In this document: one piece after another, positions 3,485-26,387 of the stretch
How the letters are laid out: every line of letters starts with the position of its first letter
How positions within the stretch are numbered: position 1 is the stretch's first letter
Program-made: the position numbers and the translations under genes
Source: a virus
IMG/VR virus record: IMGVR_UViG_3300010430_000200
Coordinates: 1 to 39,028 of that record
Reading direction: 5' to 3' (one strand)
Length of the DNA: 39,028 nucleotides
Notes under the pieces: model-generated
Databases searched by the model: none
Seen by the model: only the letters and a program-made list of their open reading frames with translations
Told to the model about the DNA's origin: nothing

Positions 3485-5378
3485 CGTTTTTTTCTAAATG
3501 TATGAAATTCGGGTAGAAAAGTCTCTTTTTTGCAAATTCAATATAAAATTCGTAATCTATGTCTAAATCTTCAAAATTATATGTAGAAATGTCTTCATTT
3601 AATATTTTTGAATGTTCAGAAATTTCTGACGCTTTATCATATTGAGGTTTTCCTTTTTTATTGATTTTAAATTTCTTTATTGTTCCGAATCTTTTATCTG
3701 TTGTTGCGATAGTTCTATTAACTTTATGTATTTCTTCTTCCTTATATCCTAATACATAATCTCCAGTATAATATAATGTTCTCTCATAACTATATCCAGT
3801 TTTACTAGTGAAGCAGAATTGTAATATATCCTTGCAATCTCTAATAGTATTTTCTACTGGTATGTCTTTTGAATAATAATCAACTATTGCTTTATGAACT
3901 ATTGGTGCATTTAAGTTAGCTGAACCTGTAACCCCAAAAGCTTGATTAGCCCACTTACCTTTTAGTTTACTTTTACCATTATCAAATTCGATATAATAAT
4001 TGTTAACATTTTTTTGAGTAATATGTCTAACCTTATCCCAGTCCATTCTGAGCATAGTTCTATTTTCCCATTGTGATACTATATTTTCCATAGCCTCTTT
4101 ATCCTCTGGGTTTATTAATGTTAGAATACCGTCAGTATTAGTTTGTATTATCTTACAATTAAACTTTAGATATAATTCATTAGCTAGAGCTAGTAATAAT
4201 AATTGACCTAGTATACAAATCCTACTGGCATTATCAGCATCAAATATAGCATTATATTGATTCTTCATTGCACCATATGTAGTATTTAATATAAGCTTAG
4301 TTGCATCACGCTGACTATTGTACATCATATATTCCTCAGACCCTTTTTCATATTGGTCTCTGATTTCACTCAATTCAAATTTCTTATTATAAATTGTTTC
4401 ATATAAACCTCTATCTTCAACAACTCGTCTACTTAAATAGTTGTAGTGAATCATCATATTAGGATAGTATGAATCAACATCAATATTATATAGTTGTTCG
4501 ATATCATTACTTGTTATACTAACATTGTCAGATATTGTTGAATGTATTCCACCAAGCCCCAATACTATATCATTATCAAATAAACTGATAGATTGTTTAT
4601 CTACCTCGCACATTGGTCTATTTGTATAATATTCTAATACTGTTCTTGGTACATACTTCTCTAAATAATCTTTAACATTTTCTGGTATAACAAAATACTC
4701 ATTCTCAAATTCTATCTTTGTTGGATTTAATACTTTTGTAACAAGCTTAGCATTTGTTGACTTCATTATGTCACCTAAATCTAAATTAAACATATTACCA
4801 ATAGTTATTTTACCCTGAGTATAATCTTTTCTAAAATCAAATAATTTAACTGTTGCTCTAACGTCGGCTTCACAATATTCACCAATCTCTAGCTTCTCAT
4901 CTTTAGTTAAATCTATTTTATTAAATGGCACCGTCGTCTCTCTAATATCCATACCTACATTACTTTCAAATGTCTTTAATGAACCCATCATATCATCGAA
5001 TAAATCTAAGAATAAGAATTTACCCCAATATTTATAATTATTAAATTCATTTTTAACTTCTCTATTATCATCACCCTCAATTATATCAAGTGATAATCCA
5101 TATACTTGTTGTGGTGTATAGACTCCGAATAATAGTGCATTTAGAACTCTAAGGTCATAACCCTTAATATTATATCCTACAAGAATGACACCTTTAACTT
5201 GCTCAAATAAACTTTCTCTCCAGTCAGTATCATCTGATGTTATTGTTATCATTCCTGTTGAATCCTTGTAAAATTTGACTAACCAGAAGTCTGGAAAGAC
5301 CTCGAAGTCAAAGAAGGAGAACTCTATTGAGTTAGAACTCTCCACTACCTGATGTTCTATGAGCTTTCTTGATAGCAT
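3471..5378 (-). CDS. Family B DNA polymerase with 3'-5' exonuclease
   Basis: Replicative polymerase of about 635 residues. Numbering from the upstream GTG at 5387: exonuclease motifs FDFE (26-29), GYNIKGYD (71-78) and YCEAD (171-175); polymerase motif A DVDSYYPNMM (303-312), motif B K364 with NTTYG (368-372), and motif C TNTDG (416-420). This set is typical of family B enzymes. The ATG at 5378 was preferred because AGGTGAG lies just upstream; the GTG at 5387 is an alternative start. Either overlaps the 3' end of the primase-helicase gene by about 50 bases, suggesting translational coupling. No terminal-protein gene was recognised next to it and the genome closes into a circle, so protein-primed replication is not indicated. 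It is the last gene of the leftward block. Confidence 0.9.
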   Translation of the reverse strand: MLSRKLIEHQVVESSNSIEFSFFDFEVFPDFWLVKFYKDSTGMITITSDDTDWRESLFEQVKGVILVGYNIKGYDLRVLNALLFGVYTPQQVYGLSLDIIEGDDNREVKNEFNNYKYWGKFLFLDLFDDMMGSLKTFESNVGMDIRETTVPFNKIDLTKDEKLEIGEYCEADVRATVKLFDFRKDYTQGKITIGNMFNLDLGDIMKSTNAKLVTKVLNPTKIEFENEYFVIPENVKDYLEKYVPRTVLEYYTNRPMCEVDKQSISLFDNDIVLGLGGIHSTISDNVSITSNDIEQLYNIDVDSYYPNMMIHYNYLSRRVVEDRGLYETIYNKKFELSEIRDQYEKGSEEYMMYNSQRDATKLILNTTYGAMKNQYNAIFDADNASRICILGQLLLLALANELYLKFNCKIIQTNTDGILTLINPEDKEAMENIVSQWENRTMLRMDWDKVRHITQKNVNNYYIEFDNGKSKLKGKWANQAFGVTGSANLNAPIVHKAIVDYYSKDIPVENTIRDCKDILQFCFTSKTGYSYERTLYYTGDYVLGYKEEEIHKVNRTIATTDKRFGTIKKFKINKKGKPQYDKASEISEHSKILNEDISTYNFEDLDIDYEFYIEFAKKRLFYPNFIHLEKNDLIS

Positions 5379-10840: not shown

Positions 10841-11758
10841 TTATTCCTCTCCTTTCTTACATATACTATAGTAAGGACACTTCTGACACTTGAACTGTGA
10901 ATAACTCTCAGGGAATAAGTCATGACCATGATGATAAGCTATTAAGCTATACATCTGATTATGAATATCTCTGAACTTAATTATATCTTGTTCACTAACG
11001 TCTTGTGACACTATAGTTACTGGTTTGACTTCATTTTCCTTTAAGTATTCTAAAAATTCTGAATAGTCTGACAACTCTTGCTCAAGCTCTTCAATTTTAG
11101 CTACATAATCGTCATATGAAACCTTTTGTTTCTTGTTCTTACTTAACTTACCACTCTTTAATACTTCTGGTTGACCCATAATAAACTTTGGTAAATTAAT
11201 ATATCCTATTCTAATATTTTCTATTTTATGGTCCTCTACAAGTTTAGGATTATTGGCTATCAGTAATGTATATAAAGATAATTGACCATCTATTTCTAAA
11301 TCTCCAATTAGTTTATCACTAGCTGATGCTTTATAATCCCATATAGTAAGTGTTTTTGTTTCTTCATCAAATGTAACTAAGTCAATCTTACCGTGTAGAT
11401 GATTCTCTAAGTCGTGTAACTCAAGCTCCACACCTATTACAACTTGATTCATTATGTTTTGAAACTCTTCATTTCTTTCTAATTCAAACTTTAGGAAGCT
11501 CCAATAATCTTCTAAACTTGGAATACCAAACTTAGCTAGAGCATCGAACTCCTCTTGTAGGACAACTGTTGTGTCAACGTCATCGCCCTTAACATACTCT
11601 TCCATTAATTTGTGTGCCATTGTTCCAAATGTCATATGCTCGTTAGATTCCAATTTAAAACCGTTTATATAACTTAACTTATATTTATAATAACAGTCTT
11701 GAAATGTGTTAACTCTACTATATGATATTGTGTCTGGCAATCTGTAATTTGATTCCAT
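10841..11758 (-). CDS. Cas4/RecB-like PD-(D/E)XK nuclease with Fe-S cluster
   Basis: A 305-residue nuclease. GTMAHKLME (45-53) supplies the motif I His, GKID (123-126) the Asp, and WDYKAS (140-145) the Asp-x-Lys catalytic strand. Cysteines C22, C291, C294 and C300 have the one-plus-three spacing of the 4Fe-4S cluster in Cas4 and AddB. It probably resects DNA ends to produce single strands for the Sak4-like and SSB-like proteins. The ATG overlaps the preceding stop codon (TAATG), giving translational coupling. No CRISPR array or other cas gene was seen, so a CRISPR role is unlikely. Confidence 0.88.
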   Translation of the reverse strand: MESNYRLPDTISYSRVNTFQDCYYKYKLSYINGFKLESNEHMTFGTMAHKLMEEYVKGDDVDTTVVLQEEFDALAKFGIPSLEDYWSFLKFELERNEEFQNIMNQVVIGVELELHDLENHLHGKIDLVTFDEETKTLTIWDYKASASDKLIGDLEIDGQLSLYTLLIANNPKLVEDHKIENIRIGYINLPKFIMGQPEVLKSGKLSKNKKQKVSYDDYVAKIEELEQELSDYSEFLEYLKENEVKPVTIVSQDVSEQDIIKFRDIHNQMYSLIAYHHGHDLFPESYSQFKCQKCPYYSICKKGEE

Positions 11759-14732: not shown

Positions 14733-15329
14733 TTACCCCCTATGGTCTTCTAATCCACCGTTTTTCATTCTAACATATTTAACTATGTTATTATGTGTAT
14801 TAACTATAAATCCCTCGACGTCTCTATCTGGTTCATATTCATTATATAAATCATCCAAATAAGGTATTGTAACTTTATCTGCGGTTCTTTTAACTACAGG
14901 AACTACACCTATATATTCTGGAATAATTTGTTCTGTGAACGGATATATTAAAAAATCAATATTGTAGTGTATATTTTTAACGTCTAGATTTTCATCTATA
15001 TTGGCTTTTGCAAATAAATACAGTCTCTTATCTAAATGCGGATATTTTAATCTACCCATGCCAATCCATTCTCCAAATACGCCACTACCCTCGTTCAATG
15101 AATTTTTAAAATCTTCTCCATACTTTTCTAACCAACCTTTTAATCCCTTGTATAATCCTCCAATAGTGTGAATCTCAGATAACTTATGTATATGATTTCT
15201 TTGTGCTATTATTAAATCATCATTAAGTCTAAAGAATCCTATATTAGAACCGTCTAATTTTTCTGTTATTATTGATGTTAATTCTTTTCTATTTATCCTT
15301 TGTGTTTTCGGATATAACGTCTTTTTCAT
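14733..15329 (-). CDS. RNA ligase family protein (Rnl2-like)
   Basis: A 198-residue nucleotidyltransferase. Motif I EKLDGSN (23-29) has the acceptor Lys24; FGEW (85-88) corresponds to motif III, EGFIV (172-176) to motif IV and KYVRMK (184-189) to motif V. It is short and ends soon after motif V, as in minimal RNA ligases without a C-terminal domain. Such enzymes seal broken RNA, often tRNAs cut by host defence nucleases. This phage carries its own tRNAs, but no polynucleotide kinase was recognised. GGAGATG precedes the start. Confidence 0.85.
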   Translation of the reverse strand: MKKTLYPKTQRINRKELTSIITEKLDGSNIGFFRLNDDLIIAQRNHIHKLSEIHTIGGLYKGLKGWLEKYGEDFKNSLNEGSGVFGEWIGMGRLKYPHLDKRLYLFAKANIDENLDVKNIHYNIDFLIYPFTEQIIPEYIGVVPVVKRTADKVTIPYLDDLYNEYEPDRDVEGFIVNTHNNIVKYVRMKNGGLEDHRG

Positions 15330-16576: not shown

Positions 16577-16734
16577 TTTCTTTTCCCCCTTAAAATATTT
16601 TTGGCTCTTCCAAATGGTGTTTCTTTTCGCATGAATACCCATTGTTTTGTATCAAAATATTTGCTGAGATTGTAACAGTCTATCAGAAATCTGATACTGC
16701 CACCTAATATAAGTCCTATAATAAATGATAACAT
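16573..16734 (-). CDS. Small membrane protein
   Basis: A 53-residue protein with an N-terminal transmembrane helix (LSFIIGLILGGSIRFLI) and a basic cytoplasmic tail ending RGKRK. It has a very strong site, AAAGGAGGTGGTGACA then ATG, and overlaps the next start by ATGA. It lies 25 bases downstream of the tRNA-like element at 16760-16799. Function unknown; the size and topology are also compatible with a small toxin or envelope modifier. Confidence 0.65.
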   Translation of the reverse strand: MLSFIIGLILGGSIRFLIDCYNLSKYFDTKQWVFMRKETPFGRAKNILRGKRK

Positions 16735-16759
16735 TGTCACCACCTCCTTTTTATTGCCA

Positions 16760-16799
16760 AAGTCAGTAGGGGAATCGAACCCCTTAAAACCATCTGACT
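16760..16799 (-). ncRNA. Reduced tRNA-like element (acceptor stem plus T-arm)
   Basis: Minus strand: AGTCAG (16799-16794) pairs with CTGACT (16766-16761) and encloses a canonical T-arm, AGGGG-TTCGATT-CCCCT, with only an 8-9 nt linker where the D and anticodon arms should be. It is about 40 nt long with no encoded CCA. It starts inside the stop codon of the upstream gene and is followed by the next ribosome binding site after about 11 bases. It could be a tRNA relic or a processing signal. Confidence 0.55.
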
Positions 16800-17154
16800 A
16801 ATTTCCTATATAACTCACAATATTTTTAATCTCATTTATTATTGCTTTTTCTGGTACTTGTTTTTTAGCTGTAGCATCTACAAAACCAGATACCGATGGT
16901 AAAAATATGAATATGAATACTAGAATCGCTCCCCATACACCAATGCCATCACAATAATCATCTTTTATCGTTAATACAATAAATAATAATATTATGATAA
17001 TAGCAAGTATAGCAATCCCGACACATATAGGTTGCCAGATACTGGCTCTAACTACAGCATCCTTAACAATAATCTCTGCTAATTCGCTACCTGTAGCTCC
17101 AAACTTCGCCGCCAATAAATCTAATCTTTTTAGAATTTCCGCTGTTATATTCAT
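16798..17154 (-). CDS. Membrane protein with two transmembrane helices
   Basis: 118 residues. An amphipathic N-terminal half (LKRLDLLAAKFGATGSELAE) is followed by a long hydrophobic helix (ICVGIAILAIIIILLFIVLT), a short acidic loop, a second helix (IGVWGAILVFIFIFLPSVSG) and a polar tail. The layout resembles superinfection-immunity or other small inner-membrane phage proteins. It starts right at the end of the 17154-17384 gene and ends at the tRNA-like element. No family assigned. Confidence 0.7.
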   Translation of the reverse strand: MNITAEILKRLDLLAAKFGATGSELAEIIVKDAVVRASIWQPICVGIAILAIIIILLFIVLTIKDDYCDGIGVWGAILVFIFIFLPSVSGFVDATAKKQVPEKAIINEIKNIVSYIGN

Positions 17155-18318: not shown

Positions 18319-19029
18319 TTACACCTCCTCTATTAGTTTAACTTCAAAAGTAGCAAACCATAGTTGATGATTAGTATCTAGTCTTTTTACCTTAACTGTA
18401 CTATCATCATCAATAATAATTATTTCACAAATAGTACCCTTCGGTATATTTCTATATTCATCTATCAAAATTTCAACTATATCTCCGACTTTGAATAGTG
18501 TATCTAAAGATGACTCTTCAACTTCTTCAACTTCTTCTACTTCTTTTTGTCTTAGTCCATTATCAATCATAAATCTCTCAACTGCTTTACTGCTTCCTAA
18601 CTCTCTCTTTAATAGACAGTTTAGTAGTCCTTTTTGTGCTGAGAACTCATCTGGCTCTGATACTTTTACTTCTTTAACTATTTTACCTTCGCCATCATAT
18701 TGTCTTCTAACTCCATCCCAAGCTTTAGAAATAATTTTCTCGTCATCATCAAATATAACAACAACCGCTGGGTCGTTAACAATAATCTTTTTAATACCGT
18801 TTAATGTTGGTGTTGGTGCTTTAACATCTTTAGCTAATCCTACGAACATTTCGTAAGTCCAAGCCCATCCACATTCCTCTATAGCGTACGTTGAGCCTTC
18901 GCAATGTTTGATTGTAACTACTTTACCGTTGAACTCAATCATCTCACTATTCATACTCCAGCCACCATATTTATTATCTAGGTTTAAATCAGCTCTAACT
19001 CTAACTTTGTCGCCAACCTTGTATTTCAT
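18319..19029 (-). CDS. Two-barrel SH3-like protein
   Basis: A 236-residue protein. The N-terminus MKYKVGDKVRVRADLNLDNK is the KVGDKV family module, with GKVVTIKHCEG and AWTYEMF matching its paralogues. A second barrel-like domain sits at the C-terminus (FKVGDIVEILIDEYRNIPKG). Between them is KIIVNDPAVVVIFDDDEKII, a strand-rich unit seen in other Bacillota phage proteins. The ATG at 19029 is set by GGAGGTTGAG. Function unknown. Confidence 0.7.
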   Translation of the reverse strand: MKYKVGDKVRVRADLNLDNKYGGWSMNSEMIEFNGKVVTIKHCEGSTYAIEECGWAWTYEMFVGLAKDVKAPTPTLNGIKKIIVNDPAVVVIFDDDEKIISKAWDGVRRQYDGEGKIVKEVKVSEPDEFSAQKGLLNCLLKRELGSSKAVERFMIDNGLRQKEVEEVEEVEESSLDTLFKVGDIVEILIDEYRNIPKGTICEIIIIDDDSTVKVKRLDTNHQLWFATFEVKLIEEV

Positions 19030-19656: not shown

Positions 19657-20094
19657 CTATAATAACTCTTTTAATTTTTTTAAGTCTTCATTATCAAGAT
19701 AAACCGTGTTATGTTTCTTTGTAGCTGAATCATACTCAACTAACATATTTAACTCATCTGTCTTAACTAAATATACACAATCCCTATTTTGGAAATAGTC
19801 TAAATGTGTACCTTTAACCATCTTCACGTGCTCAAGTTTTTGCTTATCTTCTGGTGTGATAGCTCTGCTTTCAACTTTAATATCAACTTCAACATCACTG
19901 CTATCATAACTTCTGTCTACTTTTTTTAAGTCACGTGCATATACCCAAGCTCCAGTACGTGCTGTATCTGATTCTACAATGTAGCCACCATCCTCTATAT
20001 CTACTATTGTTGCATATGTACCCATAGGGTAACCCATTGACTCCAATATATCTATGCGTCTTGTTATTTGAATCTTATCCCCAATACTTAACAT
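19657..20094 (-). CDS. SH3-like small protein
   Basis: A 145-residue protein. The first 55 residues (MLSIGDKIQITRRIDILESM..., then GTYATIVDIEDGGYIVESD) look like the KVGDKV barrel module. The C-terminal half (KLEHVKMVKGTHLDYFQN, KTDELNMLVEY) is unassigned. GAGGAGGTGA precedes the start. Function unknown. Confidence 0.7.
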   Translation of the reverse strand: MLSIGDKIQITRRIDILESMGYPMGTYATIVDIEDGGYIVESDTARTGAWVYARDLKKVDRSYDSSDVEVDIKVESRAITPEDKQKLEHVKMVKGTHLDYFQNRDCVYLVKTDELNMLVEYDSATKKHNTVYLDNEDLKKLKELL

Positions 20095-20363: not shown

Positions 20364-20612
20364 TTACAACACCCCCTCAAGAATCTTTTTTGTTATTTCA
20401 TCAAAATCAACCTCACCTATTTGCTCATATAAATCTGGATTAAGTTGTGGATTAAGTTCTATATCATTACATATAATGTCCTTAACTTCTCTCTTTGTGT
20501 GCTCATAACAATTAGGACACCCCACACAATCAAGTATTATAAACTTAGCCTCTAAAGCGTTCTTTACTCTCTCCGCATATTTCGTTAATGCGTCTCTTGT
20601 TGGTTTATTCAT
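20364..20612 (-). CDS. Small protein with CxxC pair
   Basis: An 82-residue helical protein with CVGCPNC in the middle and a further Cys downstream, possibly a metal or redox site. The ATG at 20612 is placed by AGAAGGA with about 8 bases spacing; two ATGs further upstream are too close to it. It overlaps the end of the small membrane-protein gene by 8 bases. Confidence 0.6.
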   Translation of the reverse strand: MNKPTRDALTKYAERVKNALEAKFIILDCVGCPNCYEHTKREVKDIICNDIELNPQLNPDLYEQIGEVDFDEITKKILEGVL

Positions 20613-20909: not shown

Positions 20910-21135
20910 CTATATCAACTAATTCTGAATCAAAAGCTGTTAGATGATAAACACCCGATTTACAATCAGTGTCTATAATAAAACCAACGACGTTGTCTTT
21001 TTCTGAATCTTGTATATATGTTTCTTTGTGACCATCTGTAGTTTCAAGGACTTCTTCTATTGTATACACATCTACAATATCACCTTTTTTAATGTCAGTT
21101 AAAAACATATCCTCTATTGCTCTCATTTTTTTCAT
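20902..21135 (-). CDS. Early-block small protein, GDIVDVYT family
   Basis: A 77-residue protein with the MKKMRAIED... and KKGDIVDVYTIEEV opening shared with the 19031 and 19314 products. The ATG at 21135 is set by AAGGAG with 8-base spacing. The tRNA-like element at 21170-21262 ends 35 bases upstream. Function unknown. Confidence 0.7.
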   Translation of the reverse strand: MKKMRAIEDMFLTDIKKGDIVDVYTIEEVLETTDGHKETYIQDSEKDNVVGFIIDTDCKSGVYHLTAFDSELVDIDA

Positions 21136-21169
21136 TTGTATCACTCCTTTTTTATTTTTTTATTGCAAG

Positions 21170-21262
21170 TAACGAGCCGGGGAATCGAACCCCGAAATCT
21201 TGCACCACAGATGCAACACCCTTTGCTGTTCAACAAACTGGCTTTGTCCAGAGCCTCTCGCC
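21170..21262 (-). ncRNA. Degenerate class II tRNA-like element
   Basis: A 93-nt minus-strand structure. The acceptor-like stem GGCGAG pairs with CTCGTT (two G-U pairs). Inside are GGCTCTGGACAAAGCC (D-arm-like), TTTGT-TGAACA-GCAAA (anticodon-arm-like, but a 6-nt loop), TTGCA-TCTGTGG-TGCAA (variable-arm-like) and a perfect T-arm CGGGG-TTCGATT-CCCCG. No CCA is encoded. The abnormal anticodon loop and GG where U8 is expected argue against a working tRNA. Another GGGGG/CCCCC hairpin (about 21269-21285) lies just 5' of it. Confidence 0.5.
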
Positions 21263-21282
21263 ATATGGGGGAACTGAGCCCC

Positions 21283-21534
21283 CTATTTAATGTAATCTTC
21301 TTCTATTTGTTTTTTTGTATCTGCTTCAAACCCATTTTGTTTTAAATATTCCTTAATATGTCTAAGTGTTGTTGGTGAATATGTTCCAAATACCTCAACT
21401 TCTCCATCTTTTATTTCAGCCACTACTGTGTTATAGCTAGTCAAATAACTGCCATTACCTGTAGTTGTAACTCTAGCTTTACCATAAAAACTTTGTCTAC
21501 TATCATATCTCGCCTCTAGTTCATAATTATTCAT
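21283..21534 (-). CDS. Small hypothetical protein
   Basis: An 83-residue protein (MNNYELEARYDSRQSFYGKA...) with alternating strands and YLTSYNTVVAEIKDGEVEVF, then a helical tail. The ATG at 21534 is set by AAAGGAGATG. It resembles DUF-type small proteins of Bacillota phages, but no family is assigned. It is the first gene behind the 21566-21594 promoter. Confidence 0.65.
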   Translation of the reverse strand: MNNYELEARYDSRQSFYGKARVTTTGNGSYLTSYNTVVAEIKDGEVEVFGTYSPTTLRHIKEYLKQNGFEADTKKQIEEDYIK

Positions 21535-23564: not shown

Positions 23565-23576
23565 GCCCTTCGGGGC
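23565..23576 (+). other. UUCG tetraloop hairpin before the tRNA cluster
   Basis: GCCC-TTCG-GGGC, an extra-stable cUUCGg hairpin, three bases upstream of tRNA-Trp. A similar one precedes the tRNA-like element before terL. Confidence 0.55.
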
Positions 23577-23579
23577 TAT

Positions 23580-23651
23580 GCACCTTTAGTATAATTGGCA
23601 GTACAGCGGTCTCCAAAACCGTTAGTTGAGGTTCAAATCCTTGAGGGTGTG
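23580..23651 (+). tRNA. tRNA-Trp (anticodon CCA)
   Basis: A 72-nt cloverleaf. The acceptor GCACCTT pairs with AGGGTGT (G1-U72), D-arm GTAT/GTAC, anticodon arm GCGGT-CTCCAAA-ACCGT with CCA, T-arm TGAGG-TTCAAAT-CCTTG, discriminator G. No CCA is encoded. Confidence 0.9.
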
Positions 23652-23656
23652 TTTAT

Positions 23657-23730
23657 AGCGGGATGATGCAGTTAGGTAGCAGACAAGTCTCATAAGCTCG
23701 TAGCCGAGGGTTCAAATCCCTCTCCCGCAA
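23657..23730 (+). tRNA. tRNA-Met (CAT), initiator-like
   Basis: A 74-nt cloverleaf with anticodon loop CTCATAA. The T-stem GAGGG/CCCTC sets the acceptor as AGCGGGA against TCCCGCA, leaving an A1-A72 mismatch; an unpaired 1-72 is the hallmark of bacterial initiator tRNA, and the overall sequence resembles GCGGG...CCCGCAA initiators. But the anticodon stem (CAAGT/GCTCG) lacks the three G-C pairs of true initiators and has one mismatch. Confidence 0.85.
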
Positions 23731-23733
23731 TAT

Positions 23734-23807
23734 ACAGGTGTAGTTCAGTTTGGAAGAACGCTAGTTTTGGGAACTAGAGGTCGTAGGTTCGAGCCCTGCC
23801 ACTTGTA
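23734..23807 (+). tRNA. tRNA-Pro (anticodon TGG)
   Basis: A 74-nt cloverleaf. Acceptor ACAGGTG pairs with CACTTGT, D-stem GTTC/GAAC, anticodon arm CTAGT-TTTGGGA-ACTAG with TGG, T-arm GTAGG-TTCGAGC-CCTGC, discriminator A. No CCA is encoded. The terminase small subunit gene starts 26 bases later. Confidence 0.9.
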
Positions 23808-23833
23808 CTAAAAATAAAAGAAAGGATGGTAAT

Positions 23834-24416: not shown

Positions 24417-24692
24417 ATGAAGGAATTAACAAACGGAAATTACTTTCCATGCCCACACTGTGGAGAAGATGCATTAGAAATATATAATGATATGCTCGTA
24501 GAAATGGGAGATGGAACTTTAATAAAGGTAGAAGAGTTACCAATGCTAATGTGTGAAAGCTGTGGTCAAGTTACAGTTAAAGACGAGAATGGTGACATTA
24601 TAAAAAATACTGTAATGAAGAAAATGGTAGAAATATTAGATAATAGAGATAAGTTAGATTTAGAAGGACTTATGAAATTTAAAGCTGAATAA
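24417..24692 (+). CDS. Zinc-ribbon protein
   Basis: A 91-residue protein with CPHCG and CESCG pairs about 30 residues apart, which should bind one zinc, as in YgiT/MqsA-type zinc fingers. Its own promoter and AAGGAGG site precede it. It lies between the terminase subunits; role unknown (a transcription factor for late genes is one option, since it is the only gene before a terminator on this transcript). Confidence 0.75.
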   Translation: MKELTNGNYFPCPHCGEDALEIYNDMLVEMGDGTLIKVEELPMLMCESCGQVTVKDENGDIIKNTVMKKMVEILDNRDKLDLEGLMKFKAE

Positions 24693-24730
24693 TGAGCGTG
24701 CTCTCTAGATAGGGCACACTATTCATTTTT
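24691..24730 (+). terminator. Terminator-like hairpin after the zinc-ribbon gene
   Basis: GTGCTCT (24698-24704) pairs with AGGGCAC (24711-24717); AATGA/TCATT extends the stem, and TTTTT follows. terL lies beyond it with no evident promoter of its own, so readthrough or antitermination is implied. Confidence 0.6.
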
Positions 24731-24739
24731 ATACTCCGA

Positions 24740-24755
24740 GGGGGCTTCGGCTCCC
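24740..24755 (+). other. UUCG tetraloop hairpin before the tRNA-like element
   Basis: GGGGGC-TTCG-GCTCCC, a stable cUUCGg hairpin between the terminator-like hairpin and the tRNA-like element. Confidence 0.6.
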
Positions 24756-24761
24756 GCATAA

Positions 24762-24807
24762 CGAGAGACTATGGTTAGCTAGACAGGTTCAATCCCTGTA
24801 ATCTCGA
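24762..24807 (+). ncRNA. Reduced tRNA-like element before terL
   Basis: CGAGA (24762-24766) pairs with TCTCG (24802-24806), enclosing a small CTA...TAG arm and a canonical T-arm, ACAGG-TTCAATC-CCTGT (24783-24799). About 46 nt, without normal D or anticodon arms and without CCA. The terL ribosome binding site GTAGGAGGAG follows at once. It shares this layout with the element at 16760-16799. Confidence 0.55.
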
Positions 24808-24824
24808 AAGTAGGAGGAGTTAAA

Positions 24825-26387
24825 ATGTACAAAGAATCTAAAATAACAGGAGAAAATAAAATACGTATCAATTCAATGGATGACATAGCTGAGTTAAACT
24901 CACTATCAGATGAAGAAATTAAAGACCTTCTTGAAATGATTGATGCTGAGTTGGCAAGTGCAATGAATGATAGTTACTTGTCTTTTTTACGTGAGAGCCA
25001 TGACGGTTTTGTAGTAGGAAAACACACTCAGTATTTGACTCACAAATTAGAGGAATTTATGGCTGGAGATAAGAAATTTTTGGTTATATCAATGCCACCA
25101 CAACATGGTAAGTCATTGACAGTAACAGAGAGTTTTCCAGCATGGTATGTAATGAAAAACCCAAAGAAAAGAGTTATTTTGACTGCATATAACAGTGATT
25201 TTGCTACAGACTTTGGTAGAAAAAATAAAGATAAAATAGAAAGATTTGGTCATCACTTTAATGTGAGCCTTAATCCATTAGCTAAAAGAAACGATAAGAT
25301 GTTTATAAATGGTTATGGAGGTTCAATCATGTGTTTTGGTATCATGTCAGGTATTACTGGTAAAGGTGCTGATTTAATAATAATTGATGACCCTATTAAA
25401 AATAGACAGGAAGCAAACTCTAAGACAACTAGAGAGAGTGTATGGGATGAAATACTTGACTCTGTAAATACAAGACTTTCTGCCGATGGGAAGATAATCT
25501 TCATCATGACTAGATGGCATGAAGATGACCCAGTAGGTAGAATAATTGATATAGTTCCAGAGCAATGTGAGATTATTAATATACCTTTAGAGGCTGACGA
25601 AGATGACCCTCTTGGTAGAGAAGTTGGAGAACCACTTTTCCCAGAGATAGGTAAGGATGCTAAATGGCTAGAAGAAACTAAAAGAATGTACACACAAAAG
25701 AAAGGTAAATTGAGTTGGGAGGCTTTATATAATGGGAAACCATCTATAGCAGAAGGTAACTTATTAAAAGCAGAACACTTTAATTATTATAAGAAAGAAG
25801 ACTTACCAGAGAAATTCCCAGTATTGATTTTGTCTGTTGATACAGCATTAAAAGATGGAGAAGATAATGACTGGACTGTAATTCAAGCTTGGGGTAAGAT
25901 AGGACCAGATTTCTATATGTTAGATATAACTAGAGGACACTGGAACTTTACACAGATGGTATCAAATATAAGGATGATGCACAATCACTGGAAGCCACAG
26001 CAGACTCTAATTGAAGCAAAGGCTGCGGGTCAACCAGTAATTGATGTACTTAGAAGAACCATCACAGGAATCATACCAGTAGTACCAAAAGACGGTAAGG
26101 TTTCAAGAACACAAGCTATATTGGGTGCTGTAGAAGGTGGAAATATTTATATACCAGAGGACCACTTATTAACTTATGATTTTGTGGAAGAATGTAAATC
26201 ATTCCCTAATGGTAAAAATGATGATATGGTTGATGCCTTTACACAAGCTGTATACAGACTAATGTATCAAACAGCAGAGTTGGCAAGACCAAAACCAAAA
26301 CCAGACCCATTTGGAAGAATATTACACAAAGAACCTGACCAAAACGTATATGGTATAGGAGACATAGGAGGTTTTATGAAATGGTAG
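24825..26387 (+). CDS. terL: Terminase large subunit
   Basis: A 520-residue packaging motor. The ATPase domain has Walker A MPPQHGKS (90-97), Walker B LIIIDDP (184-190) and a coupling-type segment (IIFIMTRWHEDDPVGR). The C-terminal RNase H-like nuclease begins at LSVDTALKDGEDNDWTV and ends with NGKNDDMVDAF. It pumps DNA into the prohead through the portal and cuts it. GGAGGAG precedes the ATG. It overlaps the next gene by 7 bases. Confidence 0.96.
   Translation: MYKESKITGENKIRINSMDDIAELNSLSDEEIKDLLEMIDAELASAMNDSYLSFLRESHDGFVVGKHTQYLTHKLEEFMAGDKKFLVISMPPQHGKSLTVTESFPAWYVMKNPKKRVILTAYNSDFATDFGRKNKDKIERFGHHFNVSLNPLAKRNDKMFINGYGGSIMCFGIMSGITGKGADLIIIDDPIKNRQEANSKTTRESVWDEILDSVNTRLSADGKIIFIMTRWHEDDPVGRIIDIVPEQCEIINIPLEADEDDPLGREVGEPLFPEIGKDAKWLEETKRMYTQKKGKLSWEALYNGKPSIAEGNLLKAEHFNYYKKEDLPEKFPVLILSVDTALKDGEDNDWTVIQAWGKIGPDFYMLDITRGHWNFTQMVSNIRMMHNHWKPQQTLIEAKAAGQPVIDVLRRTITGIIPVVPKDGKVSRTQAILGAVEGGNIYIPEDHLLTYDFVEECKSFPNGKNDDMVDAFTQAVYRLMYQTAELARPKPKPDPFGRILHKEPDQNVYGIGDIGGFMKW

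Follow-up and report, generated by a model that had tools for sequence, protein, structure and literature searches.

We have analysed three tRNA-like elements, E1, E2 and E3, in a stretch of viral DNA of 39,028 nucleotides (the window; positions 1 to 39,028 of IMG/VR record IMGVR_UViG_3300010430_000200). E1 and E2, and probably E3, appear to belong to a phage family of anticodon-less mini-tRNAs that act as RNase P-type processing sites and as 5' leaders, a reading to which we assign a probability of about 0.55. Members of this family were recognised by a coaxial acceptor and T helix of 11-13 bp, a canonical T-loop (TTCRA), a YGG within a linker of 7-18 nt, where a mini D-arm of 1-3 pairs is formed around it, and the lack of an anticodon arm.

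The tRNA-like elements of the window

E1 lies on the plus strand at 24762-24807 and reads CGAGA-GA-CTA[TGGT]TAG-CTAG-ACAGG-TTCAATC-CCTGT-AA-TCTCG-A. Its acceptor strands are at 24762-24766 and 24802-24806, the mini D-arm CTA[TGGT]TAG at 24769-24778, the T-arm at 24783-24799 and position 73 at 24807. The preliminary description of this DNA had reported a 46-nt structure with an acceptor-like stem and a T-arm directly before the ribosome binding site of terL, and E1 is indeed found there: the AGGAGG motif is at 24812-24817 (+) and terL, encoding the large terminase (PHROG phrog_38, E = 1e-102), at 24825-26387 (+). The same description denied E1 a proper D-arm as well as an anticodon arm; the latter is absent, but a D-arm of 3 bp is present. 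On the 5' side, a GC-rich UUCG hairpin, GGGGGC[TTCG]GCTCCC (24740-24755, +), ends 6 nt before E1. Further upstream, after the gene at 24417-24692, is a terminator-like hairpin, GTGCTCT..AGGGCAC, followed by a T-rich tail (24698-24717, +), which is a consensus match only, with one such site found against 0.8 expected. The order is thus terminator-like site, hairpin, 6 nt, E1, AGGAGG and terL.

E2 occupies 16760-16799 on the minus strand, with the sequence AGTCAG-A-TGGTTTTA-AGGGG-TTCGATT-CCCCT-A-CTGACT-T. The TAG with which the preceding gene (16798-17154) terminates runs into the 5' acceptor strand of E2, and the gene that follows, starting with ATG at 16734, has an AGGAGG ribosome binding site at 16743-16748 (-). 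E3 (21170-21262, -) is larger, with 93 nt and an uncertain class. It is composed of an acceptor of six pairs including two G-U, a D-like arm GGCT[CTGGACAA]AGCC, two further arms and a T-arm CGGGG[TTCGATT]CCCCG. A hairpin, GGGGG[CTCAGTT]CCCCC (21267-21283, -), stands 4 nt before it, and the next gene (ATG at 21135) has a GGAG ribosome binding site at 21144-21147 (-). Both elements are where they had been placed beforehand, in intergenic gaps upstream of ribosome binding sites, and all three elements lie between co-directional genes. E3 has the helix and the elbow of the family but also extra arms; it probably belongs with E1 and E2, but could instead be a deviant tRNA resembling class II. Another large element with extra arms and with the T-arm and acceptor kept was seen in contig L279 (5645-5734, -), and together with E3 it may represent a second class.

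The window also contains three ordinary tRNA genes (Trp, Met and Pro; 23579-23808, +), which were identified by ARAGORN and Rfam and provide an internal contrast outside the family. These three were the only tRNAs that ARAGORN (tRNA and tmRNA) predicted in the window, with no tRNA or tmRNA at E1 or E2, and the only Rfam matches, with none at E1, E2 or E3. Judged as tRNAs, E1 and E2 have a T-arm with a TTCRANY loop and an acceptor stem but lack the anticodon arm; judged as tmRNAs, they lack the tag reading frame and the mRNA-like domain, and the elements are of 40-46 nt. A GCCC[TTCG]GGGC hairpin (23565-23577) directly precedes the tRNA cluster, and similar hairpins precede E1 and E3.

A T-arm descriptor (a 5-bp T-stem closed by G-C, with the loop TTCRA) matched five sites in the window, namely E1 to E3 and two true tRNAs, against 0.13 per shuffled window. 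With an acceptor stem added to the descriptor and the linker limited to 20 nt, E1 and E2 remained, with 0.017 expected from shuffles. Both also matched the full descriptor of the family. E1, in which 10 of the 12 helix positions pair, is the weakest member of the set; its folding energy is unexceptional (z = -0.48) and its minimum-energy fold differs from the tRNA-like one. Since E1 does not stand out by its folding energy alone, the case for it rests on the family. An identical E1 is present in two near-identical contigs (L082 and L083) and is therefore not an assembly error. Searches of the collections with terL, portal and DNA polymerase queries returned only terL loci of 45% identity and these two contigs, with no diverged relatives of E1-E3; for this reason the three elements were assigned to the family by structure and context only.

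A family of anticodon-less mini-tRNAs in phages

The same descriptor was applied to 80 terL-related contigs (about 1 Mb), and non-tRNA minihelices were found in L016, L017 and L024, the last with a longer linker and ACCA. The L024 element (488-550, +) has a 7-bp acceptor, a 29-nt linker and a T-arm followed by ACCA, and looks like a longer-linker relative with an encoded CCA; its 5' strand lies in the last part of a reading frame of 41 codons, and the stop codon of this frame sits in the linker. A degenerate DNA pattern searched against IMG/VR yielded at least 13 clear elements among the 120 matches listed, the remainder being mostly true tRNAs, and a second pattern that did not require a ribosome binding site yielded at least 24 more distinct elements among the matches listed. 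Permuted T-loops of the same composition gave 0-3 matches, compared with 38 for the real loop. With a stricter 12-bp descriptor, 206 loci (2.3 Mb) gave 85 matches, true tRNAs included, compared with 0-2 for permuted loops.

The first base of an element is 1-16 nt past a stop codon, and most elements are preceded by a hairpin or by a promoter predicted to initiate at base 1. In six marine contigs, E2 and L016 the stop codon is inside or beside the 5' acceptor strand. Among the 24 distinct elements sampled without the ribosome binding site requirement, 12 have a Shine-Dalgarno sequence and start codon within 90 nt and 15 have a stop codon within 40 nt; a position directly before a ribosome binding site is common, not universal. 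No Rfam family was found on the elements of the window or of contigs L201, L101, L343, L352, L380, L350, L393, L329 and L344. Several single observations came from these scans. One mini element, in L340 (4140-4183, -), lies amid about 36 clustered genes for true tRNAs. In the marine phage contigs L343, L352 and L380 a conserved stretch containing GTTAAAAACYAGCCCGAGATCTTGGGCCGC, which has no Rfam match, follows the element and is itself followed by a T7-promoter-like sequence. A lone tRNA 3' end with CCA in L037 (3063-3079, -) is probably the attachment site of an integrated phage and is not a family member.

The elements are most numerous in Streptomyces phages. The Camvirus phages Saftant, phiScoe3, Endor2, Amela and Sitrop have 8-9 each; the Hautrevirus BroPlease has five, and the related contigs L201 and L101 have nine and three, respectively. 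In the right arms of Saftant, phiScoe3 and Endor2, an element is present in 24 of the 28 gaps that measure 70 nt or more and in none of 44 shorter gaps. The distance from the end of the element to the start codon that follows is 33-52 nt for all 24, and 22 of them begin 6-16 nt past a stop codon, the other two about 110 nt past it. Gaps without an element often contain promoter-like TTGACTGTGACAGTGTGAG sequences. A repeated promoter-like sequence, TTGACTGTGACAGTGAGACTGTGACAGTGTGAG, was seen in right-arm gaps of these three genomes that alternate with element gaps (e.g. Saftant 43176-43239). A stop-codon hairpin with a stem of at least 5 pairs is upstream of 14 of 25 elements, compared with 13 of 53 other stop codons, and ends 1-4 nt before base 1. 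The alternative upstream feature is a promoter with a -10 box ending 5-12 nt before base 1, as seen for about two elements per Camvirus genome.

Some of these elements carry tRNA names. An annotated tRNA-Arg in Endor2 (NC_054673, 44378-44460), the single tRNA of Sitrop, a tRNA-Arg at 11494-11576 that ARAGORN also predicted here, and ARAGORN calls in Amela (15163-15245 and 18674-18764) and Saftant (46607-46692) all fall on elements; the Sitrop paper likewise counts one tRNA. These annotations and calls (tRNA-Arg, tRNA-Trp and tRNA-Ile) are probably misannotated mini elements.

The 32 Camvirus-type elements, each of 41 nt, were aligned without gaps, and statistics were calculated on the 29 distinct ones. 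All 377 of 377 pair cells are standard, and 9 of the 13 pairs show double-sided changes. The covariation score was 0.643, compared with 0.163 for shuffled data (0/500) and at most 0.118 with slid partners. The alignment also showed pairs beyond the descriptor: a sixth T-stem pair, a mini-D pair between columns 7 and 13 that closes the YGGCA loop, and a tertiary pair between columns 14 and 29, joining the linker to T-loop position 60, which occurs as A-U, G-C, C-G and U-A. GGCA of the linker and TTCGAG of the T-loop show no variation. In the cyanophage set, 8 pairs show double changes. For the single-copy elements found by pattern, acceptor pairing was a selection criterion and stem pairing is thus partly circular; the fairer tests of covariation are the Camvirus phages, for which BLAST searches with flanking genes were used, and the set from cyanophages, which includes the BLAST-fetched S-TIP37. 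The preliminary description had named a lack of compensatory changes in related phages as a ground for refutation; such changes are present in both sets, which consist of other members of the family. Over 58 distinct elements the helix totals 11-13 bp while the 5' break shifts (5+7, 6+6 or 7+5 pairs); the acceptor and T helix of tRNA is 12 bp long. Mini-D pairs average 2.16, compared with 1.31 in shuffles. A covariance model built on the Camvirus elements did not reach the elements of the window and found few single-copy elements, and the family is therefore held together by structure and not by sequence. Aminoacylation by way of G3-U70 was rejected as a general feature, this pair occurring in only 1 of the 32 Camvirus-type elements.

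In T7-like cyanophages a single copy of the element stands just before the gene for the major capsid protein. Six marine contigs have it behind a gene for a small YRGV-type protein and before the capsid gene, and in S-TIP37 it is 5' of the capsid gene (20516-20560). In Syn5 the element, at 19842-19882, is the sole minihelix detected by a descriptor scan of the genome and lies between gene 38, which ends at 19754, and gene 39, which encodes the major head protein and starts at 20017. We found exactly two promoters for the Syn5 RNA polymerase, at 4929 and 44797. One promoter serves more than 37 kb (PMC3950665), and the capsid gene must therefore be far inside a transcript, with no local phage promoter. 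Two side observations concern similar phages. A Glutamine-II riboswitch (Rfam RF01704) precedes the element by about 110 bases in two cyanophage-like contigs (L329, 2283-2335; L393, 70-122). The Prochlorococcus phage P-SSP7 has a possible mini element near its left end (603-647, +), and the T-loop is matched twice more, near 1025 and near 2584.

The element seems to be restricted to phages and prophages, as judged from a pattern search of bacterial and archaeal genomes (257 Gb) and a model search of 150 Streptomyces genomes. The former gave 43 matches, about 20 of them tRNAs and the others mostly in coding sequence, none with the phage architecture; the sole descriptor match among them (L237) was discarded as apparently due to chance, being inside a coding sequence. 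The Camvirus model matched in 3 of the 150 genomes, one of which has four matches within 5 kb and is prophage-like. No convincing element was found in scans of Bacillus phages Page and Palmer, BCJA1c, Javan377, Aster, phiC31, WRightOn, P60 and 7B11-B. Several relatives of carrier phages, among them BCJA1c, Javan377, Page and P60, are without the element, which has therefore been gained and lost.

Proposed processing by RNase P and other explanations

Within a polycistronic transcript, the element would fold into the 11-13 bp acceptor and T helix, with an elbow formed by the T-loop held by the GG of the mini D-arm. Host RNase P may then mistake it for a pre-tRNA and cut 5' of base 1. The upstream mRNA would end just past its own stop codon, often beneath a hairpin, and the new 5' end of the downstream mRNA would be tRNA-like and base-paired, with the ribosome binding site after it. 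Where a promoter is just upstream, transcription would start at about base 1 and the element would serve as the 5' leader as it stands; on the 3' side, RNase Z may make an occasional cut. The surroundings of E1, with a terminator-like site and a hairpin before it and the terL ribosome binding site after it, fit this scheme. The role of RNase P as the reader of the element, the cleavage itself and the ensuing separation and protection of mRNAs are what we infer from the following features.

In the Streptomyces set G1-C72 is kept in 56 of 57 elements, A73 in 53, C74 in 55 and U75 in 47. The GGU of RNase P RNA contacts the nucleotides 3' of the acceptor, and acceptor and T hairpins, like the phage M3 and C4 RNAs, are cut by RNase P (PMC11143913). 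The A73-C74-U75 of the elements can pair with this GGU. Retention of the elbow (GG and TTC), a helix of about 12 bp, G1-C72 and R73-C74, together with loss of the anticodon arm, which RNase P does not require, fits recognition by this enzyme. The match is poorer in the window: E1 and E2 lack G1-C72 and RCC and have non-standard pairs at the junction of acceptor and T-stem. R73-C74 is weaker outside actinophages, and the 3' ends are A-A in E1, T-T in E2 and L016 and T-A in L017. As to structure and location, the view that reduced tRNA-like elements punctuate transcripts before ribosome binding sites is well supported.

A possible though unlikely alternative is that the element is an uncut 5' leader, a compact, RNase-resistant tRNA-like fold that makes the downstream mRNA more stable or insulates the ribosome binding site behind it and owes its shape to stability or to a tRNA-binding factor. 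For the approximately two Camvirus elements per genome that are 5-12 nt behind a -10 box, a cut is indeed unnecessary, and E1 and the L017 element, which come after terminator-like hairpins, belong to the downstream gene. However, most elements are within operons, and an ordinary hairpin would suffice for such a leader; the conserved TTCGA, GG, 14-29 pair and A73-C74 point instead to a tRNA enzyme.

The element could also be a site for RNase Z or the CCA-adding enzyme, with maturation on its 3' side protecting the 3' end of the upstream mRNA, but we regard this as distinctly improbable. Both enzymes recognise an acceptor and T minihelix, elements are close to stop codons, and the L024 element has a 7-bp acceptor followed by ACCA. 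On the other hand, C74 tends to inhibit RNase Z and is common in the elements, and a hairpin or terminator is already present for the genes upstream of the E1, L017 and Syn5 elements. As the primary reader of the element, RNase P is a better fit than RNase Z.

Multiple copies in Camvirus and the tRNA-like elbow would also suit a decoy or modification target, binding host tRNA enzymes or the tRNA-cleaving nucleases of host defence. This is very unlikely, as the elements have no anticodon loop and so do not mimic the substrate of anticodon nucleases, and a decoy would not have to stand at a fixed place in the gap that follows a stop codon. We give even less credence to decayed tRNA genes or tRNA fragments left at attachment sites, an alternative raised in part by the preliminary description. 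Linkers such as TGGCAGACAC do resemble the 3' half of a D-arm, and the lone tRNA 3' end of L037 is att-like. Nevertheless, every arm shows compensatory changes, a genome can hold as many as 9 copies, both acceptor strands are retained and the position in gaps is fixed; decay is excluded as a general explanation. An att-site origin of E1 was rejected separately, since E1-E3 retain both acceptor strands and differ in sequence. Finally, chance hairpins are refuted for the family by its covariation and by permuted-loop controls near zero, and for E1 alone, with its unexceptional folding energy, a small likelihood of chance is left.

Relation to known systems and implications

Several known systems bear comparison with the proposed processing sites. 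The t-elements of plant mitochondria are tRNA-like structures that define mRNA ends (PMC8003010); like the phage elements they lack tRNA function, lie beside or between protein genes and are taken as cleavage sites for tRNA enzymes. A t-element coincides with a mapped mRNA end, and the location of the phage elements would fit such a role. The t-elements differ in being organellar, whereas the phage elements have a fixed, compact and covarying architecture at the stop codons and leaders of viral operons, their cleavage is predicted, and the likeness need not reflect common ancestry. In mitochondrial tRNA punctuation by RNase P and RNase Z (PMC8003010, PMC9181182), tRNA-shaped units also separate the genes of polycistronic RNA, but these are true tRNAs, whereas the phage elements have no anticodon arm and hence no decoding role. 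Non-tRNA substrates of bacterial RNase P include M3 RNA, the C4 antisense RNA of P1 and P7 and the his operon mRNA (PMC11143913), two of them from phage; these are single cases, whereas the elements form a repeated family in diverse phages. The tRNA-like domain of tmRNA likewise combines acceptor, T-arm and D-loop without an anticodon arm, but the phage elements have neither tag reading frame nor mRNA-like domain. The mRNAs of T7 are punctuated by RNase III. There too a long phage transcript is processed at gene borders, and Syn5 is T7-like, but the T7 sites are duplex hairpins read by a different enzyme, whereas the phage elements present a tRNA elbow.

The literature searched, which included term searches in the papers on Verabelle, Sitrop, Endor and CaiB, gave no report of the family. 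The elements would constitute a new phage-borne RNA family that works in the manner of t-elements, with those of plant mitochondria as the nearest known kind, followed by mitochondrial tRNA punctuation and the isolated phage substrates of RNase P (M3 and C4). Chances are about even that unrelated tailed phages, of Streptomyces, cyanobacteria and other hosts, share a device for mRNA punctuation in which mini-tRNAs hand long transcripts over to host RNase P in place of local promoters or RNase III sites, and so provide the 5' ends of key late mRNAs such as those for capsid and terminase. Base 1 of each element is a precisely predicted RNA end. If the interpretation is correct, a phage RNA family would be added that has been overlooked because tRNA finders reject or misname its members, and the tRNA punctuation known from mitochondria would have a counterpart in bacterial viruses. 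It may also answer how Syn5, with one promoter for more than 37 kb, makes its capsid mRNA.
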